From NCBI GenBank assembly GCA_001661515.1, contig LUVW01000030.1, positions 155,710-219,709 of the forward strand: a DNA stretch of 64,000 bases, given 5' to 3'. Position 1 is the stretch's first letter. The number at the start of each line of letters is the position of its first letter. This document shows positions 26,213-64,000 of the stretch, one piece after another. Source of the stretch: Capniomyces stellatus. Taxonomy: Eukaryota > Kickxellomycota > Harpellomycetes > Harpellales > Legeriomycetaceae. The position numbers and the translations under genes are program-made. The notes under the pieces were generated by a model that had not been told where the DNA came from, did no database searches, and was given only the letters and a program-made list of their open reading frames with translations.

Positions 26213-29065
26213 CTAGGACTCAAGTGGGGGGCAAATAGAGTTTTTGTATTCTTTGATGCCATTTCCAGTGAACTTGGAAACAACACCACCGCTGCAAACC
26301 CACAGCTCGGTGCAAACAGCGTCGATAAACCTTTCATCGTGAGAAACAACAACAACACCACCGCTAAACTTCTTCAAGGCCTCGGTCAAAGCATCAATGG
26401 ACTCCATATCCAAGTGATTGGTAGGTTCATCAAGAACAATAAAGTGGGGGGCTTGGACAGCAAGGCAGGCAAAGGCGACACGACTCTTTTGTCCTCCAGA
26501 CAAAGTAGCGATTTTCTGGAGACCGGTCATTCCAGAAATACCAAAAGAACCCAAGTGGCGGCGGTACTCCTCCTCGTTCTTGCCAGGGTAATGCTTCATC
26601 ATATGGCCAACAGCAGTCAGACTCAGGTCAAGCTGGTCAACGTGATGCTGGGAAAAGTAGGCAATTCTCAAACGTCCGTGACGATGAACAAGACCAGAGA
26701 TAGGAGACAATCTGGCTATCAGCAGCTTAAGCAGCGTGGTTTTACCAGCACCATTAGGCCCAACAATAGCTACACGCGTATCCATCTGCATATCGATGTT
26801 AACGGTCTTGAGAATGAGGGTTTCCTTTGTGTACCCAAAAGTAACCTCGTCCATGTACAGTAGAGGTGGCGTCAAATGCTCTGAGTCTGGGAAGCTGAAG
26901 GTAACCACCTTCTCAATCTCTGGCAGTTCAAGTTCAGGTAGTTTCTCCAGCACCTTGAGTTTACTCTGAGCCTGAGGCGCACGTTTCGCGTTGTACCGCC
27001 AACGGTCAATGTAATCCTGCAAATGCGCTCGTAGCTTCTGCTGAGCCTCATACTCGCGTCTTTGATTCTTTTTGCGTTCGTCCATTGTTGACCAGAACGA
27101 CGTGAAGTTTCCTTTGTACTGATCCAGTCTTTCTGAATGTTGATGGATGATATCCGTTGCCACCGCATCAAGGAACTCTACATAATTTTCGTTCATTAAA
27201 CTATGGCTCAATATCTGCACTTTATAAACACAATATAACAATGCACACATACTTGCTCTCTTTTCTTTATCCTCTCATTCCCCTTATTCACTATATATTG
27301 ACCAAAAAGAAAAAGAAAAAAAAAGGAAATATCCTCGTCCCCCTCCTCCTATTGCTATTTACCTCTGTCGTGAGAAACTACCAACAACGTATTTGGCCAT
27401 GTCTGCAAGTACCTCTCCAACCAGACCACCGCTGGAATCTATGTAAATATATTCAAGTAAGTTACGCTAAATAAACATGCCAACAAATCGCATCTCGCAC
27501 TCTAATCCACAACCAAGAGTCCAGCTCAAAACTATACAAGGGGCTTTGCTTTTTGTTTAGTTACTAGCCCACCTCATCTCATCTTATAAACAGATATACA
27601 ATCATATTCTTACATCCAACATATTAGTAGGTTCATCAAGCAATAGCAAATCAGGCTTGCAAAACAAGGCTCTGGCAAGCGACAATCGCATTCTCCATCC
27701 TCCTGAAAAGCTTCGTGTTGGTCTTGAAAAATCTGTTGCTGAAAATCCCAACCCACTAAGAATTTCTCCTGCCCTATTAGTACACAAGTACACCATTTTT
27801 TATTAGTACTGCATTTTTAGTCTTTCTTTTCTTTTCTTTTCTTTTCATCTCTTATTTTTGTATGACCATCACTTTTATAGTAGAATTGTACTTACTTTGA
27901 CTCGGCCTTATCTGCCTCGATTTCTTGCAACTTCTTGTGGATTTCGTTTAATCTTTCTCCCGCTTCGTTCTTTGTCTTTTCCAGAGCATCCTTGTCTTCT
28001 TGCGACAGTTCCTCGCTGGTAGAACCAGTCTCAATTTCTTGGACTGTGGCGTTCAGCTCTGCCTCCTCTCTAAGCAGCATTCCGCGGAAGAAATCTGCTT
28101 TCAATACCGACTCTATAGCTGACGTATCGTCTCCTGCCATCTATTATATATATATATATATATTTAAATCACACCAAACACATACCCCACCACTCTTTTC
28201 TTTTTAGCAACTCCGTTTAAAACACTACCAGGTATTCTCTTTGTTATTCACTTCTACACATTCTACTAAATCCCTGCCTATACTTTACCTCTTGCTCTAC
28301 GTGCAGAATACTAATATATGTAGGAATAGGCAATTCTCTTCTCGATATGTTTCGCAAAAGCGTCGACTTTCCTATTCCGTTTCTTCCTATCAATCCGTAT
28401 CGACGACCAAACGCCATCTGCAAGTTTGCACTACCCAAAATCCTCTTCCCACTAAACGAAATGTCAAAGTTCTCAACAATAACATCTTTGATTTTACCCT
28501 TCGACTCGGTGTAATCAAGAATCGGATTCACCTTCATCAAGAACTCGTCTGAATCCTCAACATCGTCAATCAACTTACTGGCCTCGTAGTTGGCCTTCAG
28601 CTCTCTCTTCTCAAGCTTCGCTGCAATCTTCGCCTCCGCCTTTCTCAACTTTTTGGTATCCACCTGTGACACCACACTTCTGCCCTTTGCATGTCCCAAC
28701 TCCATCCCACCTCCTTGCACCATTCGTGTTGCTTTGTTAATTAAGGCTTGATCAAAATTCATATTTACTGGTTTTTCCAACTTGGTCAAGCCCGCCGTCT
28801 TTTTCCCTTTCGCCTCTATGATTCTATCTGTCTCTTTTATAATCATACTCGCAATCTCCTTGCAGATCATTTCCACTTTGTTTTCTTTCTCTCCCGATTC
28901 TTCTAAAATCGGCCTAATCATTTCCTCAACCATCTCTGAATCTTCAAACCCATTCTGGATCTCCTTTAACACATCTATTACATATCCACTAACATATTCT
29001 AGCAATGTAGCATCTACCCCCGCCATCAATGTCTCTAGCTTTTCCTTTTCCTCTTGAAACTCCAT
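26213..29065 (-). CDS. GCN20: ABCF3/Gcn20-type ATPase
   Basis: Cytosolic twin-ATPase that works with Gcn1 on ribosomes to activate the Gcn2 kinase under amino-acid starvation. Five exons (29065-28289, 28140-27896, 27773-27614, 27438-27363, 27177-26213) give 740 aa in phase. The first about 200 residues form the helical Gcn1-binding domain typical of Gcn20. Cassette 1 has Walker [10 protein letters not shown], signature [16 protein letters not shown] and Walker [13 protein letters not shown]. Cassette 2 has [21 protein letters not shown] and [12 protein letters not shown]; each ends with a switch His (VVSHDR, VVSHDE). The linker [15 protein letters not shown] is the ABCF signature region. There are no membrane segments. 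It shares a roughly 1-kb intergenic region with the divergent alanine aminotransferase gene. Confidence 0.95.
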
Positions 29066-30085: not shown

Positions 30086-31895
30086 ATGGGTAAGTCAATA
30101 ATGCAACACGCTTTGCCGCGCTAGTCATATTTTAGAGTACTGGATTTTACTCGCACAAACTCATTAACCTCGTTTTTCTTTTCTTACTTTTCCTACTTTT
30201 TTATTATTACTTGTCTCGAATCCAATTCCAAACTGATAAATCCATTGTTTTTCGTGAATAACGAATATGCAAATAAATAAATATTAGGAAGCGGTGAGAA
30301 TAAGAACACTAAAAATGTATTGACTATCGACACAATGAACCAGAGGGTTAGGAAAATGGAGTATGCTGTGCGTGGAAAGCTGTCTGTCCGCGCAACAGAG
30401 TTGGTTGGACAATTGGCGAATCCATCTGCGGACAAGTTGCCCTTCGACAATGTATTATTTTGCAGCGTTGGAAATCCGCAGCAACTTGGACAAAAGCCAC
30501 TCACTTTTATGAGACAGGTTTTGGCTCTTGTTGAGCTTCCTGAACTTTTAGAGGGTAGCAAGCTTGAAATAGTCAGACAGTTGTTTCCTGAGGATGCTAT
30601 CCAAAGAGCCAAGCAAGTCCTCAAATCTGTTGGAAAATCGGTAGGCGCATACACCGACTCTATTGGTAAGTTCACAAGCCACTTGGTGCAAAGCAAAGCA
30701 AAACCTAAGGCTGGGTGCTATGTTAAATTGTTTTTAATGTGTATGCCGAGTTTGGATTGTTGGTGGTATCTGATTAGTTGGTGGAATTGGCGACTTTGTA
30801 GGCATCAGGGCAATCAGACAGCATGTTGCGGAATATATCGAGAGAAGAGACGGCTTCCCATCAAACCTGGACAACATCCATTTGACCAACGGTGCATCGT
30901 TGGCTGTGGAGCGGGCTATTGAGATAATAACAGCGAATGATAAGGTCGGGTTCATGATTCCTATTCCACAGTACCCGCTGTATTCAGCTTGCTTGACAAG
31001 GTTTGGAGCGAATGCAGTTCCGTACTACCTGGTGGAGGATGAGGATTGGGGTCTGAACACAAGCGGGTTGAAAACATCGATTGATAACGCCAGGTCAAAT
31101 GGGATTGATGTTAGAGCCATTGTAGTCATAAATCCAGGAAATCCTACTGGTGGCGTGCTGACCCGCGAAAATATGGTAGATATTGTCAAGTTTTGCGAAA
31201 GCGAGAGGCTGTTTTTGATTGCCGACGAGGTTTACCAAGCAAACGTGTACTACAAAGAGCGGCCATTCACATCGTTCAAAAACGTTGTGTGTAGCCTTGA
31301 CTCAAAGGTGGAGCTAGTTTCAATAAACTCTATCTCCAAAGGCATGACGGGGGAGTGTGGACGTCGTGGAGGGTATTACGAAATGCACAACATTGATGAT
31401 GCGGTGAAAAAAGAGATTTTCAAGATGGCATCAGCTTCGCTGTGTGCAAATGTAATGGGCCAAATAGCAATGGATATTATGGTAAAGCCACCGCAGCCAG
31501 GCGACGAATCACACGACATGTATTACAAGGAGATAGATGACATTTACCAAAGCTTGATCAGACGCAGCAAAATCCTGCAAAACACATTCAACACACAGGA
31601 GGGTATGAGCTGCAGAGTTGCCCAGGGCTCCATGTACTTGTTTCCACAGATCAGATTCTCCAAGAAATTCATTGACTTTTGCAAAGCTAATGGCAACAAG
31701 TCACCTGACCTTGTCTACTGCATGAGAATGCTAGAACATTGCGGCGTCTGTGTTGTCAATGGAAGCGGATTTGGACAGGTCGAGGGTACTTTTCACTTCA
31801 GGTGCACGTTCTTGCCTCCAGAGAACCACTTTGACTCCTTTGTGAATACATTCACCGAGTTTCATTCAAAATTTATGGATGAGTACAGAGATTAA
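30086..31895 (+). CDS. ALT1: Alanine aminotransferase
   Basis: PLP enzyme interconverting alanine + 2-oxoglutarate and pyruvate + glutamate. Three exons (30086-30089, 30288-30665, 30802-31895) give 491 aa in phase. The first coding exon is only ATGG. The N-terminal VLTIDTMNQRVRKMEYAVRG and the FDNVLFCSVGNPQQLGQKP block are specific to eukaryotic ALT. HLTNGASLAVERAIE, VVINPGNPTGG, LIADEVYQANVY and NSISKGMTGECGRRGGYYE follow; the last contains the PLP-binding Lys and the ALT-specific GECGxRGGY. The start MGSGENKN shows no clear mitochondrial presequence, so the product is probably cytosolic (inference). Confidence 0.96.
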
Positions 31896-32319: not shown

Positions 32320-34527
32320 TTAAAGTGATTCGTGAAGCTGGGCTGCTTCCTCGTCTGAATAGCCCATGAGGTACAGGACATTCGCCAAACTGGTTTGGTT
32401 GATTCGTACGCTTGCCTGGGCCTGTACCTTGGGTTTGGCATTAAATGCAATTCCTAAACTGGCACGGCCCAGCATAAGGAGATCGTTTGCACCGTCACCA
32501 ACAGCCGCCACTTGGTTAATAGCAATGCCCTCTGCCTGGGCAATAACCTCAAGCAGCTCAGCCTTACGCTCAGCATCGACTATTGGGCCAATCGTTCTCC
32601 CAGTCAGGAACTTGCCATCGGGCGTGGTTTCAAGCTGGTTGGCGAAGGCGTAGTCCAAACCCAGCTCTGACTTTACGTATTTAGCAAGCGGGATAAATCC
32701 TCCCGAGATTACCGCCAACTTGAATCCCGCAGACTTGAGCGCACGGCACAAGAAATGAGCGCCCTCAGTAAACTCAAGCCTCTTGCGCACCTTTTCCAAA
32801 ACCTCGACTGGTGTGCCTTTCAGCAAACCAACGCGTCTAGCCAAAGACTCCTTAAACTCGATCTGCCCTCTCATGGCCAGCTCGGTTATCTCCGAGACCT
32901 GGTCTACTATGCCTGCATGCCGGGCAATTTCGTCAATAACCTCCTGCTGGATCAGTGTAGAGTCCATATCAAACACAACCAGTCGCTTCTGCTTTCTGTA
33001 CACATTGTCTGGCTGGAGTGCCACATCGGTGTAGTGCTCTGTTGATAGCTGGAAAATCTCTTTTCGAAGATTGTCGGTATCCAGGTCGCTTGGAACACTC
33101 AGAATAAACTCAATCGATTTGAGCTGGTTGCTTGAATCCAACCGCTTCATCTTGAGAACCGAGATCTTGCGCAAAAGCAGCCACTTTACAAACAGATCCA
33201 AAAAGTCGGACTTCAGCCCCGTTTGCCTTAACAACGTTGCCACAAACTTGTTCCTGTCCGCATATGGCGCCTCCTCCAGCCTATACTCCAGCCCGTTTGC
33301 TATCTGCTTTGCCTGCAGCCGGGCGTTCTGCACATCAAACGTCAAGGCCCCGTCCCACTGCCTCGCTGTCTTTGCCAGCGCGTTGAACAGGTCCACAGAC
33401 GACCCCGTTATTTGGATCAAAACACCAAACACCACATTGTGGTGCAGTCGCGATAGTGAAAAGTCCAGAATCTTGCATTTATAGCGAGCACAACAATCCA
33501 ACAATCCCCCAATAATGTCTGTACCGTGTGGCCCTCGCAGCGAAACAGTAACGTTCTGCATCCCCTCAACATGTTTCATCGTCTTTTCTACCAGCAGATC
33601 CTCGCCGCTGGCTCCAGCAGCCTTTTCTGGCTGGCTAGTCCCACTGAGCGAAGATTCTGGCACTAGTATGCCCTCTTCCTGCAGCTGCAACCTGATCTTT
33701 TCAACCAAACTTATTCCATCAATATTGATGTCCACGTTGTTGCTACTCGACTCTAATCCCCCATCCAACGACTGTTCAGATTGCTTCTTGCCAAGCTGCT
33801 TCTTTGCATACACTTTGTTTGACACCTGCACCAATGCGTTCATTACTTTTTCTTTGATTTCCAAAAGCCCTGTGCTAATAGGAATCATTAGCTGGGTCAT
33901 CCTCATGATATAAGGCTCTTTGATTTTAAGCCCACTGTGCTTATCAAACCTCTTCAGTATCTTTACAATACACGTAAAGTTGATGAAAACAAACTGCTCA
34001 AGCATTAACAAGGACTCCAATGTAGTGTTTAAGCATCTCAACTGCTCTGAAAGCGACAACGGCTCGCCCTTATCTACAGCCCCCTCTACATCTTCAGAGC
34101 CACAATTTAGCAATACCCTTGTCGCAAATTCAATTTTCTGCTCAGCAGTTTGATTTAGCCAAACATCCATCTCCTCAACGTTTCTGTCAAGCTGCCCTAT
34201 AAATATTGGTACATTGGTGGATAATAGCTGCAGCCTTTCGCCCAACACGTCCTTGAAGCCCTTTTTGGTCTGCTGCTCAATTGTTTGTGCTGAAAGTGCG
34301 CTTTGTGTTGGTGAGTCCAAGGAACTCAGAATCGTGTATGAGCTTACATGCTTCCAAACAAAATTGTGTCCCTTTGGAAAAGATTTGAGTAAATCAACTG
34401 AGTTTTCCTGAATGTTTGCCTCCAAGTACCCGCGTAGATCTGAATATGAAATGAAATGTGTGCGCCATTCGGCTGGGAACTCTGTTTTGCGTTCTTCGTA
34501 GTATGAACTGAACTTCATTTTTCCCAA
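32320..34527 (-). CDS. SPX-ACT-ACT-phosphoserine phosphatase fusion (SerB type)
   Basis: The C-terminal half is phosphoserine phosphatase, the last step of serine synthesis. The HAD motif I is VVFDMDSTLIQQEVIDEIA (518-536), motif II Ser lies in KLAVISGGF (603-611), and motif III/IV is AAVGDGANDLLM (674-685). Two ACT-like modules precede it at about 324-400 (VTVSLRGPHGTDIIGGLL) and 428-505, as in bacterial SerB2. Residues 4-200 read as an SPX domain: MKFSSYYEERKTEFPAEWR and ISYSDLRGYL at the start, and FVFINFTCIVKILKRFDKHS (180-199), which carries the lysine cluster that binds inositol pyrophosphates. The whole 735-aa protein is one uninterrupted ORF, so the fusion is not a splicing or prediction artefact. 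Allosteric control by phosphate status is inferred. Confidence 0.9.
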   Translation of the reverse strand: MGKMKFSSYYEERKTEFPAEWRTHFISYSDLRGYLEANIQENSVDLLKSFPKGHNFVWKHVSSYTILSSLDSPTQSALSAQTIEQQTKKGFKDVLGERLQLLSTNVPIFIGQLDRNVEEMDVWLNQTAEQKIEFATRVLLNCGSEDVEGAVDKGEPLSLSEQLRCLNTTLESLLMLEQFVFINFTCIVKILKRFDKHSGLKIKEPYIMRMTQLMIPISTGLLEIKEKVMNALVQVSNKVYAKKQLGKKQSEQSLDGGLESSSNNVDINIDGISLVEKIRLQLQEEGILVPESSLSGTSQPEKAAGASGEDLLVEKTMKHVEGMQNVTVSLRGPHGTDIIGGLLDCCARYKCKILDFSLSRLHHNVVFGVLIQITGSSVDLFNALAKTARQWDGALTFDVQNARLQAKQIANGLEYRLEEAPYADRNKFVATLLRQTGLKSDFLDLFVKWLLLRKISVLKMKRLDSSNQLKSIEFILSVPSDLDTDNLRKEIFQLSTEHYTDVALQPDNVYRKQKRLVVFDMDSTLIQQEVIDEIARHAGIVDQVSEITELAMRGQIEFKESLARRVGLLKGTPVEVLEKVRKRLEFTEGAHFLCRALKSAGFKLAVISGGFIPLAKYVKSELGLDYAFANQLETTPDGKFLTGRTIGPIVDAERKAELLEVIAQAEGIAINQVAAVGDGANDLLMLGRASLGIAFNAKPKVQAQASVRINQTSLANVLYLMGYSDEEAAQLHESL

Positions 34528-35376: not shown

Positions 35377-37218
35377 ATGAATTTCGCAATGATTCTTGGG
35401 CATATTAAGCACAGAAACAGTGGTTTGTTTACAAAAGCTTTGAGGCGACAACAAATTGAAAAGATATGTATAAGAAGTTTGTCGGATCTTGGCAGCGAGC
35501 AGCAAATCGATACTTGCGATAGAAATCCCAAAAAGGAGAGTAAATCCATTCGTGTTAGATTCGCACCCAGTCCAACGGGCCAGCTTCATTTAGGCGGTTT
35601 AAGGACTGCGTTGCTCAACTATCTGTTTGCGCGTGGAAGGAATGGAAAATTTATACTTCGGATTGAGGATACGGATAGAAAAAGATTTGTTCCTGGTGCC
35701 GCAGATAACATAGTTAAAACCCTCAAGTGGGCTGGCTTGGATATTGATGAAAGCTACGAGAAGAATGGTGCGTTTGGTCCTTACATTCAGTCCGAAAGAA
35801 ATCACATTTACCAAAAATACGCCAAAATAATGTTAGAAGAAGGTAGCGCATACGAGTGTTTTTGTAAACCTGAGACTATTGAGGGAATGAGGAAGCTCGC
35901 TATAAACGAAGGTAGAATACCAGTGTATGACCGCAGATGCCTAAAGTTAGACAAAGGCCAAGTTGAAAAGAAAAAAGCGGATGGCGAACAGTATGTTATT
36001 CGTTTAAAGTGTCCAACAGATACATCGCTGGTGGATGACATGGTATACGGAAAGGTGCAGATGGGCCTGGCACAGCAAGACGATGCAGTTTTGGTCAAGT
36101 CGGATGGCACGCCAACCTACCACTTGGCGCACCCAGTTGACGACCATTTAATGGAAATTTCGCATGTTTTTAGAGGCGAAGAATGGCTTGCGTCAACACC
36201 CAAGCACCTGGCTATTTTTAGAGCACTGGGGTGGAACCCACCAAAGTACGTGCATCTGCCGCTGTTGTTTAATACCGACGGCACCAAGCTGAGCAAAAGG
36301 AGCGGAAACACCGATGTGCAGAGCTATATAGACAAAGGGTATCTGCCTGAGGCACTTGTAAATTTTGTTTCTTTTCTTGGATGGACGCCTAAAAATGTCA
36401 AAAGCGAAGTCATGGATTTGGACTCTCTAGTTGAGCAGGTAAAGCTTTTAATTTAATACAAATATTATGCTTATTGGATACCTGTAGCGGCTCGTGTGTT
36501 CTTGGTTGACTGTGTTGTAGCTGATTTATTGCTGAAACCGATGATTTTGATATAGTTTTCCATCAAGGATTTGAACAAGTCTAACTCGGTCGTGAATCTA
36601 GACAAATTAAGCTGGCTGAATAAACAGTACATTCAGAAATCCATCGACGACAAAAAAAAGTTGGCCGAAATTTCGAAAAACACTGCACCCAAAATAAAAG
36701 AACTACTGGGCTTGAGTGAAACGCCCTCAACGCTGCTAGTGGAGTCGTCTTTGGTGATATGTAAAGAACGCCTTTTATTTTACAGCGACATAGCCAAAGT
36801 TGGCTCCTATTTTTTTATTGATCCGGATTATAACTCTACAGATGCAAAAAAGATGTTGGATAAAGTCCCGGTTGAACTGAGAGAGAAAATCGCTCGCTCT
36901 ATTGTCAGCTATCTGCTTGTATCAATACCCAAAGAACTTTTGAATAAAGAGTCCATGGACATATTCCAATCAATCAAAAACAAAGATGTTGGTGATATTG
37001 TCGGTGCTGGGGAAGCAGGGCATGGCAATTGGGCGGACTTTTCAAAAGCCATTTCCAAAAACTTGGCAACACCAGTCAAATACGTAAACATGACCACCCG
37101 GTACATAATCACAGGGCAGTTGAGTGGACCAAGTCTTAAAGAAATAATGGAAGCCATCGGCCCTAATAAAGTCGTGTCCTTGTTCTACAAAGCTCTAAGG
37201 GGGTTTGAAGGGGTATAA
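35377..37218 (+). CDS. MSE1: Mitochondrial glutamyl-tRNA synthetase
   Basis: Class I synthetase charging mitochondrial tRNA-Glu (EARS2/MSE1 group). Two exons (35377-36438, 36556-37218) give 574 aa in phase. A basic N-terminal extension of about 55 residues (HIKHRNSGLFTKALRRQQ) looks like a mitochondrial presequence. The catalytic domain starts at VRFAPSPTGQLHLGGLRTA with the HIGH-type HLGG, followed by LRIEDTDRKR and GPYIQSER. YHLAHPVDDHLMEISHVFRG and WLASTPKHL are present, and the KMSKS-type loop is GTKLSKRSG. The C-terminal alpha-helical anticodon-binding part is bacterial-type. No N-terminal GST-like domain is present, which excludes the cytosolic enzyme. Confidence 0.95.
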
Positions 37219-45620: not shown

Positions 45621-48600
45621 CTACAAATCATCGTCTCTTCCTACATCCAAAACAGAATTAGAAGCAGAGTCAGAAAGAGGCTTGGGTTTAGACTGTGGAG
45701 AAACAGAAGCGAGTTTGGCGGAGCTGTCAGAATGTAGAACGCCCAAGCCCGCAACAACAGGAACAGGAGTGTTGGGGACATCAACAGAGTGGGGAAGGTT
45801 GGGGCTGGTTGAGAGGAGTTGGGGGGCGATTTGGTCATAGTCCTGGTGTTGGACCTGGTCTTGGTCTTGGTCTTGGTCTTGGTCTTGGTCTTGATAAACG
45901 TCGTCTTGGCCATCCTCGTTGTCAAAGTAGTAGTGTTCGGTTTGGCATTCAACCAATGCTCTCAACCTAACAAGGCGCATTTCAGGGGGAATAAGGGTTT
46001 CAATAATTGTGACTTTGCGGGCAGTGAGGTAGAGGACCTGGTCGTTCATATCGTTAGTGTCGAGGAGAACGTTGTCGCTTCTTTCAGTAATCTCAGCACG
46101 CTTTGCGATTTCAGGCAGGATAGGACCGAGAATGGGGTTTTCATAGTCGGAAACAGCGTAGATGGACAGAATTTTTTTGATCTGGGCGGGGTTGAGCAGG
46201 TCGCAGACTTCAAACATGATGTCGATATCCTGTTCAGTGGACTTTTGGAGCTGGAGCAGTTTGACGAGCTGGAGCAAGCGGTCTAGGTTTTTGGTGTTGT
46301 CGCTAACCAAGTGGACCTTGCACCATTCCTCAATCCTAGTGAGATTGTACTGGATCTGCATGCCACGCTTCCAGGAACAAAAGTTTCTGCGCATGATGAT
46401 GTTGTTGAACGCGGTGACACCAATAGTGCACAGCAGTTCAGAAAAGATCTGCTGCATAATAGCCATGTCGACGTAGTAAAACTCCATAATCTTCCAAACA
46501 TTATTGAAAAAGTTGAGAATGTTTTCGATTTTAACTGGAGACTCCTTATTAACAGACCCCATGATCCGGTTGAAGAAGGACGAGTCTGATGCAGTGAACC
46601 CCGGTAACGCCTCGCTCTCAACAACAGCCGGAATAATCAGCTTGATAAACCGCCTTTGCAGGTTCTTGACCCACCCAAAATAAATGTCACTCAACAACGA
46701 CTCGAGAAACTGCATGCTCTCATTCATCGCCTGCTCAGAGTGGATGTACTCGTGCGAGTTTGACTGTCGCTCAGTCATCGACGTCTTGACAATCGAAAGC
46801 AGCTCAAACACGTTGGACAGCCAAAAGGCAGCGGAAAAGTCAGACTCAAACGTCATTGTCTTCTTCTGGATCAGACCTATACACGCCATCAGCAGCTTTT
46901 CAATCCGATTGGCCAGGTTGAACTGGAACATCTTGATTACGCACAGGCCAATTAGATGCGAGGGAAACAGCACTTCTGACGGCGAGTACTCGGCATCCAG
47001 GTTGGGAATCGGAACAATCAGGTTGCCTATCAGCTCGTTCAGCACCTCGGACAGCAGCCCGTCGTCCAGCTCCAGCATTGTGTACACCTCCTCCTCATCG
47101 CGCAAAACAAACTCGTGCACAAGCTCGTTCGAGTACCTCTGACCGCCACTTCCATTATGGCTGCCTGGCCCATATCCAGCATTGTTGTACTGAATATAGT
47201 TGATGTTTTCTTGTTGTAGAGAGTACTGCGTGTAGTCGTGCATGTCTGGACTTCCCGAACTGCCTCCACCACCACTGTTGTTGGTGTTCCGCCGCATCTC
47301 GTTTCTCACCTGGTCAACAAAGTTCTGCGACTTGTACTGAGGGTGTGCATAGCCTTGGGCTTGGGCTGATTCGGCCAGCATCATCTGCCTCTGCAGGTCC
47401 TCGCCCCCAACCGTTGATCCGCTTGCCAACGACCGGCCATTCGACAGCGACCCACTGCTCGTCTCACCGTCAAACACCATGTCACCGTGCTCAAATCCGG
47501 CTGCCATGTACGAGTTGGGCGAGTCCCACCTGCGCTGCTCGTTTCTCTTCATCGAAGACGGCGGCACAAGAACTCGCGACTTTTGCAACTGCGCGTCCAT
47601 CGCCCGACTGTTCATCCGCTCTCTCTCCACTGCCTCCTCCGCTACTTGCAATTTTGTCCGCATTGACTCCAGCTCGGTTGTCAGCTCGTTCCGCTCCCTC
47701 TCCAGCCGCTCCGTCAGCTCCGCCATCTGCTTGCGTAGTTCTTCCGTCTCGCCCGCAGAGTCTGCCAGTCTGCGGTTTTCCGACTCCAACTCGGCCGCAA
47801 GACTGTCCCTGGCCCTGTTTGAGTCGGCCAGATCTTGCGCCAGCTTGGTGTTTGCGTCGCCCAGCTCGGCCCTGAGCTGTGTCTGCGCAGCTGAGTTTTC
47901 CTTCCGGGTCTCCTCGATCTTTGCCAGAGTCTCCTCGTGCTTCAGCTTCCACTTGCTGAGTTCAGTCTCCAGGTCCTGACACCGTTTGGCCAGTCTTGAC
48001 GTCTCGATCTCCTGCGACTGCAGCTGCCTGGTACAGTCCACCAGTCTGCTCTCCAGCTTGTACGACACCGACTTGAAGTGCTCCGCAGACTTGGCCTCCA
48101 ACTTTAGCACCTTCAGCTGTTTCTTGGCCCCCTTCATGCGCAGAATCGCTTGCATGCGCACCACCGTGTTATGCTCGTTTCTCCACAGCTTCTTTCCAAA
48201 GTACCCGCGAACAATCCTTTGGATATTTGTTGCTGCAATGTTCTTGCGCATCAGATCCACCCTCTTGCGGCTCAAGTACCCCTTCGCCAACGACACCAGC
48301 TTGATCCTAGCCTTCAACTGCGACTGCACCAGTCTGCGTGCCAAGAACCGCCGCGCCAGCTGTTGGATCAGTGAAACCGCCCGGCTCTTCCTCAAGGCCT
48401 GCACCTGCTTCTTGGCAATAACTCCCCGGATTGCCCGCACCACCACGGCTGAGGCTGCGCGCATCTTATTGTACTCTATCCGCCGCACGCTCCTCTTGAA
48501 GTTCCTCTGGATCATTAGCGCCGAGTCGCGCAGCTTATCCGTTCTCCTGCGCTCAAGGTTGGCCAGAACACTTGCCCTGAAAAACACCTTTGTCAGTCCA

Positions 48601-50999
48601 ACCTGGTACTTGTTCTCGTCCGGCAGCAAACTCTCCACCAACACCCTCACCGCCGTCTCCAGGCTACTCTGCCCCCGCGACTCCACCGCCAGCATGTCGT
48701 ACCGCGCTAAAAAGTCCCTCTTGCTGATCCTTGATGGGTACCCCGCACAACTGATCCGGATCGTCTCCAGTACCCCGCACGCCCTCAGCTGCGCCAGCAC
48801 CATCTGCGAGTCCAATTCCCACGCCGCCTTGGCCTCGTTTGGCTTGATGCACCTAATGTAATGCGCTTCCGTTGACCCGATTGTCGATATCAGCTGGATC
48901 AGCGATTGCCTGAACACCGCTCCCAGCGTCGAGTTTTTCCCCCCAGCATCCGGCCGCTTAATCCCCGCCACTGGCTCTGACACCAACGACAGGTCAATGT
49001 TCAGCCTCGATGCCTTTGGCGACTTGGCGTCCACCTCCGCCTGCTCACTCTCCGGCTTCCTGACCAATTCCCGCAAAAACTCAAACCGACTCTCCCTCAG
49101 CACCATCTGCACCTCCTCTGGCACTGTGTCTCTGTTTTTCTCCAAGAACCCGTCTATCGTGTACGTCACGTCGTTTGCATAATGCCGGATTGTAAACTGC
49201 GGCTGCTGGAACCGCGGCTTGATAAAGTAGTCGCTCGCCTTGCTGCCCCCTCCTTCGCCCCCGCCTCCCGCTACTGTCACGTCCACTATCGACCGCCTCT
49301 TTGACACCACCGGCACTCCCCCGCCTGCAAACTGCGAGTACATCTTTTCAAGCGCCGTCTGGTCCGTGCCCTGCTTCAGTCTCGACTCCTCGTCCAGAAT
49401 CGACAGGATCCCCATCTTCCCCTCAATCAGCTCAATGCACGGCTGGTTGTCATTGAAGTCTATAAACGTCCAGTTGCTCAGCTGCTCCCGCTGGTACTCG
49501 TCCTGCTCCAGCTTGAACACGTGTCTGTTGAAGTGCTGCTGCAACTTCTCATTTGCATAGTTGATGCAGAACTGCTCAAATGAGTTCTTCTCAAAGTGCT
49601 CAAACCCGTATATGTCCAGCACCCCAATAAAGTTTGCCACCGTTCCTGTCCCGTCCTGGATCGCATTGTTTATCTCCGTCACTATCCAATCAAACAGGTG
49701 CGCGTATATGTACTTTGTAATCGAGTCTCGAACCACCACCGCACTCGCCATGTCCAGGTTCGACTCTATCTTCTCTGACTTCATCCGTATCTGCTTCTTT
49801 GTCATCCACTTTCTAAACCTACCCTTATCCACCCCCAGCAACTCCACTGCTTTCCCAAACGACTCGTCATCCTCCTTCACATTCGCCCCACTCCGCCCCA
49901 CCTCCCCAATCTTCACGTTCCCCATGTGCAAAATCCCCGCCAACACCTTAAATATCCCCCACTGCTTCTCCTCCCCTATCCCAATCACCCCCAGCGCTGA
50001 GCACGTACTCTCAAACTCTTTCCCGTCATCCACCCCCGCTATCTTCCCGCTATCCTCCCCCCCTTGGTTTGTGTAAAAAAATTCCTTACACCCCTCCCCA
50101 AGCCCCAGCTCCCCCCTCTCCTTCTCCCCAATTCCCGCTAAAAACTGGTAGAATATGTGGTAATTCCTCTCTTTCTCCGGCTGATACACCAACCGCGACC
50201 TCTCCAGCAGATACGTCCTTATAAACGCTCCCACTATACTGTGCTTCTTGTTGAACTGAATCTCCAAGTACTTTCCAAACCTTGACGAGTTGTCATTTCT
50301 CGTTGTCTTTGCATTTCCAAACGACTCCAATATCGGGTTTGTTGCCAGTATCATCTCCTCAATTGGACTTATCTTCTCCCCCCTCGCACTGTTGTCCCGC
50401 ATGTCCTCGTGCGCCGATGCAAAGTACCGCATTATATACTTTGCACTCACCGTCTTCCCCGCCCCCGACTCTCCCGACACTATTATCGTCTGGTTCTTTT
50501 CCTCCCGAACCATCCCCTGGTACGCATCCTCCGCTATCGCAAACAAGTGCGGCTCCAGCTCCCCCCTCATCCGCCCCGCATACGCCTCCAGTATATCCTG
50601 CGAATACATCTGAACCCGCGCAAACGGATTCATTGCCACCAACACTATCCCCGAGTACGTGTATATATTGCGCATATTGTACCGCACCTTCAGATTGTGC
50701 AGCACTGCTGGCTCGTGCAGATGCGACAGACTCGTCAAGTCATCTATCCCCTCCAAAACTGGCGGGTTACATGGCGGCGGCAAATACTTTGTCTTGTCAA
50801 TAAACACCTCTGTAAATGTCGCTGTAAACTCCTTCCGCGTTTCCTCTCCCACCAAAAGCTCAAGGTATATACTTTGGTCCCTCACTTCGATTCTACTAGC
50901 CACAATCGTCGCTTGCACCCAGGCTTCTATTTCATCCTGAACATATACTTTTGCCCCCCTGTTGTAGTTGTTTAAAACTTCATTCTTGTCCAGTGTCAT
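45621..50999 (-). CDS. MYO2: Class V myosin heavy chain
   Basis: Actin-based motor carrying secretory vesicles, vacuole, mitochondria and other cargo to growth sites. The 1792-aa protein is encoded by one intronless ORF. An SH3-like N-terminal module (GAKVYVQDEIEAWVQATIV) precedes the motor (about 90-830) with P-loop GESGAGKT (176-183), switch region NDNSSRFGKYLEIQF and DIYGFEHFEKNSFEQFCIN. The converter/neck follows with six IQ-like motifs (about 865-1010: MIQRNFKRSVRR, LIQQLARRFLARR, NIQRIVRGYFGKK). A coiled coil covers about 1020-1190 and a Ser/Gly-rich linker 1190-1390. The cargo-binding dilute domain (about 1400-1720) includes LEQFDELE-type helices and NNIIMRRNFCSWKRGMQIQY. The tail ends with a QD hexamer-repeat stretch. 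Codon use in the motor is richer in C on the plus strand than its neighbours. Confidence 0.96.
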   Translation of the reverse strand: MTLDKNEVLNNYNRGAKVYVQDEIEAWVQATIVASRIEVRDQSIYLELLVGEETRKEFTATFTEVFIDKTKYLPPPCNPPVLEGIDDLTSLSHLHEPAVLHNLKVRYNMRNIYTYSGIVLVAMNPFARVQMYSQDILEAYAGRMRGELEPHLFAIAEDAYQGMVREEKNQTIIVSGESGAGKTVSAKYIMRYFASAHEDMRDNSARGEKISPIEEMILATNPILESFGNAKTTRNDNSSRFGKYLEIQFNKKHSIVGAFIRTYLLERSRLVYQPEKERNYHIFYQFLAGIGEKERGELGLGEGCKEFFYTNQGGEDSGKIAGVDDGKEFESTCSALGVIGIGEEKQWGIFKVLAGILHMGNVKIGEVGRSGANVKEDDESFGKAVELLGVDKGRFRKWMTKKQIRMKSEKIESNLDMASAVVVRDSITKYIYAHLFDWIVTEINNAIQDGTGTVANFIGVLDIYGFEHFEKNSFEQFCINYANEKLQQHFNRHVFKLEQDEYQREQLSNWTFIDFNDNQPCIELIEGKMGILSILDEESRLKQGTDQTALEKMYSQFAGGGVPVVSKRRSIVDVTVAGGGGEGGGSKASDYFIKPRFQQPQFTIRHYANDVTYTIDGFLEKNRDTVPEEVQMVLRESRFEFLRELVRKPESEQAEVDAKSPKASRLNIDLSLVSEPVAGIKRPDAGGKNSTLGAVFRQSLIQLISTIGSTEAHYIRCIKPNEAKAAWELDSQMVLAQLRACGVLETIRISCAGYPSRISKRDFLARYDMLAVESRGQSSLETAVRVLVESLLPDENKYQVGLTKVFFRASVLANLERRRTDKLRDSALMIQRNFKRSVRRIEYNKMRAASAVVVRAIRGVIAKKQVQALRKSRAVSLIQQLARRFLARRLVQSQLKARIKLVSLAKGYLSRKRVDLMRKNIAATNIQRIVRGYFGKKLWRNEHNTVVRMQAILRMKGAKKQLKVLKLEAKSAEHFKSVSYKLESRLVDCTRQLQSQEIETSRLAKRCQDLETELSKWKLKHEETLAKIEETRKENSAAQTQLRAELGDANTKLAQDLADSNRARDSLAAELESENRRLADSAGETEELRKQMAELTERLERERNELTTELESMRTKLQVAEEAVERERMNSRAMDAQLQKSRVLVPPSSMKRNEQRRWDSPNSYMAAGFEHGDMVFDGETSSGSLSNGRSLASGSTVGGEDLQRQMMLAESAQAQGYAHPQYKSQNFVDQVRNEMRRNTNNSGGGGSSGSPDMHDYTQYSLQQENINYIQYNNAGYGPGSHNGSGGQRYSNELVHEFVLRDEEEVYTMLELDDGLLSEVLNELIGNLIVPIPNLDAEYSPSEVLFPSHLIGLCVIKMFQFNLANRIEKLLMACIGLIQKKTMTFESDFSAAFWLSNVFELLSIVKTSMTERQSNSHEYIHSEQAMNESMQFLESLLSDIYFGWVKNLQRRFIKLIIPAVVESEALPGFTASDSSFFNRIMGSVNKESPVKIENILNFFNNVWKIMEFYYVDMAIMQQIFSELLCTIGVTAFNNIIMRRNFCSWKRGMQIQYNLTRIEEWCKVHLVSDNTKNLDRLLQLVKLLQLQKSTEQDIDIMFEVCDLLNPAQIKKILSIYAVSDYENPILGPILPEIAKRAEITERSDNVLLDTNDMNDQVLYLTARKVTIIETLIPPEMRLVRLRALVECQTEHYYFDNEDGQDDVYQDQDQDQDQDQDQVQHQDYDQIAPQLLSTSPNLPHSVDVPNTPVPVVAGLGVLHSDSSAKLASVSPQSKPKPLSDSASNSVLDVGRDDDL
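45852..45896 (-). repeat. Hexamer repeat encoding (QD)n in the myosin tail
   Basis: On the plus strand TCTTGG is repeated about seven times; on the coding strand it gives alternating Gln-Asp codons near the C-terminus of myosin V, outside the dilute domain. Confidence 0.9.
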
Positions 51000-60350: not shown

Positions 60351-63300
60351 TTATTGTTGGGATGCGATAATAGACTCGACCTTGGTTCTTGCAGCCAAAA
60401 CCTCGTCTTTAGAGCCAGTCAGGACGATATAGTTGGCAGGTTTAGAGTTGGGGCTGGACTTGGGAATATCGATGTTTGCACCAGTTTCAGCGCGGATAGA
60501 CTGGATAACAGACCCGGCTCTTCCGATAATAAAGCGGTGGTACTTTTGGTCGACTTTCAAGGTGAGAGAAAAGCCAGCCTGCTTGGCAAGAGCGATTTTT
60601 TGATTGATGTAGTCGGTGGCTTGAACAAGAGCATCAGACTTGCCTCTAATCAGCCACTGGGCAGTTGGACCGTCAGGGTTGTTGAGCTCGGCACTCAAGT
60701 CAACAAGAACAGCATCGGTGTCGGCATCAATGGCGGATGGAGAGGAGGAAGATTCATCATCGTCGATTCTCTTGATTGGACCAGTTGGCTTGTCGACTCT
60801 TGAAGCCTCAACAGTAACGTTGAACTGCGAGCTGACGTTTCTCCACAGCTGAGATTCACGGCCGCCAAGCTTTCTGTGCAGGGGCAGTGGAACAGTGATG
60901 GAAGATTCCTCGCGAACCAGAGCGAGCAGGGCAGTCTTGGCAGCCTCGCAGTTCTCGGGCAAGCCAGAGATCGAAACCAATGATGGGTCAGCAGAGGCAG
61001 GGGTAGAGGTAGAGGTAGAGGTAGAGGTGGAGCGGGATCTTTGGTTAGAGTTGGGGAAATCGATTTGGACTTTGTGGGTGTTTTGGATGAGTTTGAGGTT
61101 GGAGCCGCTGCGACCAATGACAAAGGGATGTTGGGCAGGAGGAATAGACACAGTGATAGTTTGAACTCTGTCAAAGGCATCGACGCGGGACTGGAGCTCA
61201 GCAATGACGTTGTTAACAATAGATTTATCGCCAACAAGTCTGACGGCAGAGGCGTTTACACCCGAAGAGTTGGCTCTTGGGAAGAAGACTCTGCAGGAGA
61301 GCGGACCGGAATTCAACTCAGGGTTTCCGCCACACTGGCGAACAATGTCACGTGAAATGGATCCGCCAGGACCAATGAGGCTGCGGTGGTGTTTAGGGTC
61401 AATTTGGATCTGGGACTCGACAGTCAGTTCCTGTTCAGAAACAATGGCAGTCAGAGTTTTGATGGCGGCGTTGACGTTTTCGACGGTTCCAGTGACCTTG
61501 ATTTCAACAGACGAGTCGGGGCTGGATGTGGAAGTTTGGTCAGCCGAGCCGTTGACGTCGATTTTGGCGTCGTTGATGTCGATTTTGGTGGAGGTTTCGG
61601 CTCTGATTTCCGAAATGCGGGAACCTTGGCGACCAACAATGTACCTCAGGTGCTTGGCCGGAACGCTGATAGTTTGCGAGTAGTTGTTGGTGGTTTCGTA
61701 GGCAGCGAGCTCAATAAATTCCTGGCATGCTGCAGCAACACCCTTGCTTCCTCCGCGAACAAGAACCTCATCAGGCTTGAGCTGTACAGCGTGGTACTTG
61801 TCGTTGCCAGACGCGTCTTTTGGCTGGGCAGCACTGGATGCGTCTGCACCTGCACCTGTACCCTCGGCCTTTTCGGCGGTGTTGCTGGTGGGGAAGCGGA
61901 CGGTGACGCCGTACCTTTCTTCCAGGCGGCGGACAAACTTGCCCTTGGCACCAATGAGGGTTCTGTGGAGTTCAGGCTTGACCTTGATGATGGTGGAGGT
62001 TTGGTCAGCCAAGTCTTCAACCAGACTTTCGATCTCGGCCTTGGAGGACTCAACGCCCTTCTTGGTTCCCTTGATCTTGATTGAGGCAAACTTCTGGTCA
62101 GCACCCTCAGATTTTTCGGAAACAGAAATCTGAACATCGTGGATTGAACTGAGTCTGTTGAGCCCTGACCCGCCCTTTCCAATCACTCTTGAAAGCAGCT
62201 CTGTTGGGCACTTGATGGTTTCCTCAAAGGCATACATGATTTCGCGATGTTTGATGTCTGAGACCTTCTTGTTGATTGCGGCCGATACTAGCGCAACAAT
62301 TTTCTTGGGGCCCTTGAGCGAGATTTGGTCAGCTTCCAGGGTCTTTTTACCCAGCTTGGGCGATTGTTTCTCCTTGTTCTCCTTATTGTCCTTTTTGTCG
62401 TCCTGTGAGTGGCCAAAGTCTACGTACACTCTGGTCTCGTCGTCGTTGGCGCCTGTCTGCTCAAGAATCTCTCGCAATGCTGCTCCTCTTGCGCCAATCA
62501 GTGCACTGTGGAACTTGGCTGGAACATTCAGAACCTCAACGGTGTACTCGGAGGCCTCCTGCACGTGTTTAACCAGCTCAGCCTTGACGAGGCTCAGTAG
62601 TGATTTGATGGCCTTGTTCTTCTCCTTGACTTCAGTTATTCTCTCAATGTCTGGGTTGTGTCCCTCGTACACAAGAATCACTTCACTTGACCTTGCTGGC
62701 TTCAGGTTACCCAGATTTTCTGGCTCAACAGGTGTCAGAATCATCACGCTTGACTTGTTTCTGATTCTTGTTGCGTTTGCCCCGTTTCGCCCTACCAGGT
62801 GCCCGTGCAGATGTGGTTCTACCTCCATTACGTCAAAGTATGTTTGCGACATTCTCCCCACAATCCCCACCAGCTCTGCCCGTGCCGCTGCCACTGATCC
62901 CGCTGACTTACCCACCAGCTCAACCACCAGATCTTCCTGGCATGTTGGCTTCATTGACCCTTTTGCCTTGCTCATGTACACGTTGATGCTGTGGTCCTGC
63001 TCAAGTCTTCTTATGATCCTCTGCACCTGGATGTATCGCAGTATACGCCATCCCAACTCCATGTTTGGTGTGTTGCTATTCAAAGTCGACAAGTCAACCG
63101 TGTCAATGCTAACCGAGTTGGCCTTCTCAATCACCTTGCTCATTCCCTCCGTCAATCTGTCCTGCTGCCCCCTCACTGTAATCGTTGTTGACTCGTCTTT
63201 GCCCCCCGGAACCTCAACACTGCACCCTGTTGCCTCCAGAATCTCATGGATCCCTGACCCCTTTGTCCCAATAATAAACCGGTGTTGTCTTTTTGGCAGG

Positions 63301-64000
63301 TTTACTTGCATCGTTCTCAGCGTTCTTGACAGTTGCCCTGAAATCTCCTCAATTCTGCTAATCACCTGACCCACCGCATCTCTTTCTCCCGACACCGTTA
63401 TTGTACTGTTCTCTATCTTGCTACCTGCCTCCTCTGCCCCAACCTCCTCTCCAAACACCATTGGCACTCTGATTCTCATTCCACCAAACTCCTTCACCCA
63501 CTCATTGATCTGCTTGTTATTTGGCCCCGCAATAAATGCAAAGTGTTCTCTAGGAATATTCGATAATCTTGCCCCACGCTTCGATGTCTATTTCCATTAT
63601 TATTAGTTTTTTTTTTTTTTTTTTTTTTTTTTNNTTTTTTTTTTTTTTTTTTTTTTTGTTAGTATTTGTATATCTATACATTTTTATATCTATATATATT
63701 TATCAATCTTCTTACCCTCTTTTGCACAATATCTTCAATCGCTGCTCTAGCCAATCCAACTCCTTGCACATCTCCAACAATACTAACATCAACCACCTCA
63801 ACTAGATCATCGTCATTGAACTCTCCACTAGCCCTATCCCCTTGTCTACCCCCCTCCTGCTCGTTTTCTGAACGTGGTGGCAACGTTATTCTTGTTCCCG
63901 TTTGTGTCTGGATTGTTGCCAATGTCTGTCCCTTAACTCCAACAATAAATCTACGAACCACGTTTGGAATCTGGATTACCAGTGTGATTTGTGGCGATAA
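60351..64000 (-). CDS. SCP160: Vigilin/Scp160 multi-KH RNA-binding protein, 5'-truncated
   Basis: Polysome- and ER-associated RNA-binding protein built of many KH domains. Two exons are visible: an upstream exon from the window edge to 63716, and 63587-60351; AGG|GTAAG to TAG|ACA joins in phase. At least eleven KH GxxG loops can be read, among them GVKGQT, GTKGSG, GRNGAN, GARGAA, GKGGSG, GAKGKF, GRQGSR, GPGGSI, GRSGSN and GRAGSV. One module (GPNNKQ) and one near the C-terminus (GGRESQ) are degenerate. The protein ends shortly after the last KH. More KH modules are expected upstream outside the window; vigilin has 14. The intron contains a poly-A tract (poly-T on plus) interrupted by NN. Confidence 0.93.
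61001..61032 (-). repeat. (GAGGTA)n hexamer encoding Ser-Thr repeat in vigilin
   Basis: GAGGTA units repeat about five times on the plus strand; on the coding strand they give a Ser-Thr run in a loop inside a KH module of vigilin. Confidence 0.85.
63607..63657. repeat. Poly-T tract with NN inside the vigilin intron
   Basis: A run of about 50 T with two undetermined bases at 63633-63634. It is intronic (poly-A on the coding strand), and its true length is unknown. Confidence 0.9.

Follow-up and report, generated by a model that had tools for sequence, protein, structure and literature searches.

A gene on the minus strand of a 64,000-nucleotide stretch of the Capniomyces stellatus genome (hereafter the window) joins an SPX domain, of the type with which cells sense inositol pyrophosphates, to two ACT domains and a SerB-type phosphatase of the HAD family in one polypeptide. 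This SPX-ACT-ACT-SerB arrangement (SPX-SerB) is a real, conserved and apparently undescribed architecture of early-diverging fungi that is built of known domains. That many early-diverging fungi have the fusion in common hints at a connection, so far undescribed, between the sensing of phosphate and the production of serine. We consider it fairly probable that the protein is a phosphoserine phosphatase with two regulatory inputs, namely inositol pyrophosphates (PP-InsPs) acting through the N-terminal SPX domain and serine acting through the tandem ACT pair. A preliminary description of this DNA, made from its letters alone, was aware of no SPX-SerB enzyme in the literature; our search of the open-access literature, which does not exclude subscription papers, likewise found none.

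Gene and domain structure of SPX-SerB

The gene spans 32320..34518 (minus strand, as are all domain coordinates below) and encodes 732 residues in a single open reading frame (ORF) that runs from an ATG at 34518 to a stop codon at 32322-32320, an extent based on the ORF itself, on Pfam and NCBIfam matches and on full-length relatives. The preliminary description had placed an uninterrupted ORF of 735 codons at 32320..34527; its place is confirmed, but the count of 735 begins at a TTG, and the start is likely the ATG at 34518. From this ATG the protein opens MKFSSYY, in agreement with the MKF start already noted and as SPX proteins do. Because the 735 codons were counted from the TTG, the earlier residue numbers are three too high: the lysine cluster K-I-L-K-R-F-D-K assigned to 189-196 is present, but at K186-K193.

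The C-terminal SerB HAD phosphatase (residues 507-732; 32323..33000) matches the Pfam Hydrolase (HAD) profile at 2.9e-21 and the NCBIfam SerB equivalog TIGR00338 at 3.9e-80 (268.6 bits against a cut-off of 144.15). It carries DMDST at 517-521, SGG at 605-607, RK at 651-652 and GDGAND at 674-679, which correspond to HAD motifs I-IV. The residues of these motifs, among them D517, D519, S605, K652, D675 and N678, are invariant in all 66 rows of an alignment of full-length members (the window protein and 65 of the 105 relatives of at least 600 residues). The match above the cut-off and the full set of motifs bear out the earlier claim of a complete SerB HAD domain, and judged by its sequence the protein is a phosphoserine phosphatase, which would convert O-phosphoserine to serine and inorganic phosphate (Pi), the final reaction of the phosphorylated serine pathway. 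The tandem ACT region (residues about 319-506; 33001..33564) comprises ACT1 at 321-397 and ACT2 at 422-503. Pfam ACT_6 matches at 325-389 (5.4e-7), the structural model gives the topology beta-alpha-beta-beta-alpha-beta twice, and Mycobacterium avium SerB2 matches the window protein over residues 319-732. ACT2 has no separate Pfam match; the two modules of the preliminary description nevertheless stand, ACT1 by Pfam and both by the model and the match to the M. avium structure 5is2. Another structure of that enzyme, 5jlp, is titled 'in complex with serine at ACT domain', and by analogy the tandem ACT pair may sense L-serine.

The N-terminal SPX domain (residues 1-228; 33835..34518) is recognised by the Pfam SPX profile PF03105 at 5e-9 (37.1 bits against a cut-off of 27.8), and among the 66 aligned members Pfam finds SPX in 65 (at E up to 0.001), ACT_6 in 65 and HAD in 66. 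In the profile search against the PDB the SPX-SerB profile is nearest to rice SPX2 and SPX1, ahead of Vtc4 and XPR1. In a separate search several TALE-repeat chains matched a 21-residue stretch, which we take as a composition artefact. A fold search with the full-length model showed no SPX chain among the 50 rows listed, because SerB, HAD and ACT structures took up the list, and for this reason the SPX domain was modelled by itself. The predicted fold has a predicted local distance difference test (pLDDT) score of 88.4, with weaker confidence at about residues 50-85, and shows the N-terminal helical hairpin and long-helix bundle of SPX domains. The profile search and structure prediction proposed in the preliminary description thus yielded SPX, ACT_6 and Hydrolase matches in one protein and an SPX fold for its N-terminal region, and uphold the identity of the SPX domain.

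Putative ligand site of the SPX domain

In Vtc4 the ligand residues are reported as Y22, K26 and K133 of the phosphate-binding cluster (PBC) and K129, K132 and K136 of the lysine surface cluster (KSC), and mutation of either set is reported to lower InsP6 (inositol hexakisphosphate)-stimulated synthesis (PMC9911596). Alignment with ScVtc4 places the PBC positions at Y25 and R29 in Y-S-D-L-R (residues 25-29; 34432..34446) and at R190, and the KSC positions at K186, K189 and K193, the last four lying in K-I-L-K-R-F-D-K (residues 186-193; 33940..33963). The window SPX domain thus has the tyrosine and five basic residues, with R29 and R190 where Vtc4 has lysine. Conservation was assessed in a 106-row alignment of the window protein and the 105 of 122 relatives that are at least 600 residues long. 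Y25 is found in all 103 rows with a residue there, and K186 and K189 are kept in 106 of 106; position 29 is K in 96 rows, R in six, C in one and a gap in three, at position 190, 99 rows have K and seven have R, and at position 193 there are 59 rows with R and 47 with K. When K and R are counted as one class, each of the six positions ranks in the top 16 of 187 columns. Since SPX domains generally conserve this core, such conservation speaks for retention of the site and is no proof of sensing; judged from these residues, the SPX domain of SPX-SerB most likely binds inositol pyrophosphates.

Distribution, origin and genomic context

A search with the whole protein returned 38 relatives, the nearest from Furculomyces boomerangus (58% identity, full length) and Smittium; relatives align over 99-100% of the window protein at 48-58% identity. 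Because the whole arrangement recurs over 99-100% of the query, the layout is not due to chance. A second search with the ACT-SerB part, from which the best 120 of 7939 matches were taken, brought the set to 122 proteins. Precomputed Pfam SPX annotation is present on 102 of them, from many named species, and the 20 without it consist of five from Smittium, whose N-terminus aligns, and 15 shorter than 600 residues. The named SPX-bearing sources include eight phyla: Kickxellomycota, Chytridiomycota, Neocallimastigomycota, Zoopagomycota, Basidiobolomycota, Glomeromycota, Mortierellomycota and Mucoromycota. Lineage was looked up for one species of each phylum (a sister species stood in for the listed Spizellomyces), and the placing of the remaining genera is presumed. 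The search of related fungal genomes that had been suggested thus recovers the same architecture widely, and the possibility that the fusion is unique to this genome is rejected. No member of the Dikarya was seen among the named rows of the 38 relatives and the best 120 of 7939 matches. When residues 1-220 alone served as query, 722 candidates yielded no relatives other than five from the Harpellales, a small yield that may reflect SPX divergence or the word limit of the search. Public databases already list SPX-SerB proteins, most of them named simply phosphoserine phosphatase, HAD-like or hypothetical protein.

A tree was built from the ACT-SerB part of 39 fungal rows, seven of them shorter than 600 residues, and of 13 of 54 prokaryotic loci. 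The tree tool flagged long branches; the fungal rows form one fully supported set. Every phylum with at least two named rows groups together, and the deep order is not settled by the tree. The window protein groups with Furculomyces and Smittium (support 100/99), which places it in the Harpellales. Because the fungal rows form one set within which the phyla group together, a single ancient fusion followed by vertical descent fits the tree, and it is probable that the domains were joined a single time, before the split of the early-diverging fungal phyla. That the fusion as a whole came from prokaryotes is rejected: in 54 of 54 prokaryotic loci, found in a non-exhaustive scan for two peptide patterns, both taken from the HAD part, the match begins at residue 307 or later. 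Since a diverged SPX domain could escape a comparison of match starts, 13 of these 54 loci were examined more closely for upstream frames: in eleven, no more than 85 open codons precede the match, and the other two (L017 and L066), with long upstream frames, gave no Pfam SPX match at E 0.01.

In the host genome (24.5 Mb in 59 contigs, searched exon by exon) this gene is the only one above the SerB cut-off, and ten further HAD matches are weaker and all below it. One IPK-family kinase match and a PPIP5K N-terminal domain were found, as was a SerC-like gene at 432.6 bits, just under its cut-off of 443.6; SerA gave piecewise matches only, below cut-off. From the IPK, PPIP5K and SerC-like matches, the host likely possesses both the PP-InsP ligand and the rest of the serine pathway. 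The best SerA-like (PGDH-like) match (G000:C3:418610-419690) contains one in-frame TAG in six-frame reading, perhaps an intron. Two other host SPX genes, at G000:C7:797350-798861 and G000:C28:60849-62378, have open frames of 736 and 742 residues and are 96.4% identical over 2556 DNA alignment columns; the pair either arose by recent duplication or consists of two haplotypes of a single gene. Around SPX-SerB, five neighbouring ORFs of the window show no evident functional cluster with it: an ABC ATPase (26213-27250, minus strand), a class I/II aminotransferase (30882-31895, plus), a glutamyl/glutaminyl-tRNA synthetase catalytic domain (35377-36456, plus), a 1792-residue myosin with a DIL domain (45621-50999, minus) and a multi-KH protein (60351-63497, minus).

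Proposed regulation and comparison with known systems

Inositol pyrophosphates are the cell's phosphate and energy signal. On the strength of the conserved binding site, their binding at the SPX domain would alter phosphoserine phosphatase activity, and L-serine at the tandem ACT pair would exert feedback on the phosphatase. As to sign, we lean slightly towards the ligand activating or releasing the enzyme, such that serine would be made when phosphate and ATP are plentiful, because of the precedent of VTC (PMC9911596) and of PHO1;H1 and SPX-MFS (PMC13153306), in which the ligand is described as activating or releasing the attached effector. A more far-reaching explanation, to which we give a little less than an even chance, is that SPX-SerB is an ancestral fungal dual sensor through which PP-InsPs and serine together govern the final reaction of serine synthesis, with the enzyme as a Pi-releasing valve. 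It would have been present before the early-diverging phyla split, with the SPX domain later lost or weakened in some Glomeromycota, partly in the Harpellales and perhaps in the Dikarya.

A sub-case of the favoured explanation of a phosphatase with two regulatory inputs, whose probability overlaps with it, is the same sensor with the opposite sign: PP-InsPs would restrain the phosphatase, and low phosphate would free it, making serine synthesis an internal source of Pi. We regard this as unlikely yet worth serious attention. Serine synthesis has been named as a phosphate source, and serine was predicted to rise under phosphate limitation because the last step releases Pi (PMC7864628); in plant SPX-only proteins, moreover, the ligand is reported to strengthen PHR binding and thus repression (PMC13153306), which counts against the sign that we favour. 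The PBC and KSC residues fit either sign, but the effectors of VTC, PHO1;H1 and SPX-MFS, which ligand activates or releases (PMC9911596, PMC13153306), argue against restraint.

Alternatively, the SPX domain could serve for docking or oligomerisation, either by contacting a second SPX protein or by bringing the enzyme to the vacuole, with no direct regulation of catalysis, an idea to which we give limited credence. Contacts between SPX domains have been reported for the VTC complex (PMC12653687), and the stretch between SPX and ACT1 includes residues 254-265 and 278-317 with pLDDT below 50, which would suit a flexible tether. The sequence of the SPX region diverges far more quickly than that of the enzyme (between the window protein and Spizellomyces, identity is 27% in SPX, 53% in ACT and 73% in HAD), which suits docking and weighs against the proposed sensor. 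The ligand-site residues, however, belong to the best-conserved positions in the SPX region, which pure docking would not require.

Other observations also weigh against the explanation with two regulatory inputs. Foldseek alone gave no SPX match for the modelled domain at E <=0.001 (best 1.2e-3), and ACT1 scores an insignificant 3.8 bits against M. avium ACT1. Within the VTC complex, mutation of the PBC and KSC residues of Vtc3 is reported to have had little effect, and Vtc5 appears to function without sensing PP-InsPs (PMC9911596). The Harpellales themselves depart from the usual site: in all seven of their rows, the window included, position 29 is R or C and position 190 is R, changes seen in no row outside the order that has a residue there, and position 33 is E or R instead of the usual K33. 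This substituted PBC stretch (residues 25-33; 34420-34446) recurs in the Harpellales relatives P0001-P0006. Judged by these residues, the Harpellales sensor may be changing specificity or decaying. Seven Glomeromycota SerB models of 417-450 residues, from Gigaspora, Racocetra, Dentiscutata and Entrophospora (P0058, P0059, P0061, P0066, P0113, P0115 and P0116; the record of P0066 is marked partial), begin a short way ahead of ACT1 and have no SPX domain, such that SPX may be dispensable unless these models are truncated. SPX is also missing from one Podila (P0093) and one Cunninghamella (P0117) model whose relatives carry it; the SPX-less models reflect either lineage loss of the sensor or truncation. 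Together with the five Smittium rows lacking precomputed Pfam SPX, the substituted PBC and the SPX-less Glomeromycota models would fit an SPX domain that is a relic in the Harpellales, kept as a fold with no present function. We hold this to be improbable, as all seven Harpellales rows still keep Y25, K186, K189 and basic residues at 190 and 193, and the window's own SPX fold is predicted with high confidence. That two adjacent genes were misread as one has a negligible chance and is rejected: no evidence for it was found, the ORF is single, uninterrupted and intronless, and 102 of 122 relatives, drawn from many named species, have Pfam SPX within the one protein, which sustains the earlier claim that gene-model error cannot create the fusion.

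If the proposed regulation is correct, PP-InsP control would reach amino-acid synthesis through the host's only SerB found, and would do so in several fungal phyla, which include mycorrhizal and gut fungi. An enzyme of primary metabolism would then be a direct PP-InsP effector; the SPX effectors named in reviews act in phosphate transport, storage or signalling (PMC12653687, PMC13153306). SPX-SerB also offers a concrete molecule for testing the published view that serine synthesis supplies phosphate and is coupled to phosphate balance (PMC7864628).

Among known phosphoserine phosphatases, mycobacterial SerB2 (M. avium 3p96, 5is2 and 5jlp) shares the tandem ACT pair, but its 415-residue chain has no SPX domain, and in ACT1 the fungal SPX-SerB has GPHGTDIIG where M. 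avium SerB2 has the bacterial sequence. Human PSPH catalyses the same reaction within the same HAD family, and its chains of 220-225 residues match the HAD part only; yeast Ser2, also of this reaction and family, has about 309 residues and no known SPX domain. Among SPX proteins, we know of no SerB or ACT domain in XPR1/PHO1 (SPX-EXS), SPX-MFS, plant SPX1/SPX2, SPX-RING, GDE1, Pho81 or Pho87/90/91. Vtc4 (SPX-TTM) of the VTC complex resembles SPX-SerB in that SPX precedes a catalytic domain and the six PBC and KSC positions are kept or conservatively replaced, whereas its SPX domain is described as followed by a triphosphate tunnel enzyme and then a transmembrane domain (PMC9911596), in place of the ACT pair and HAD phosphatase of SPX-SerB.
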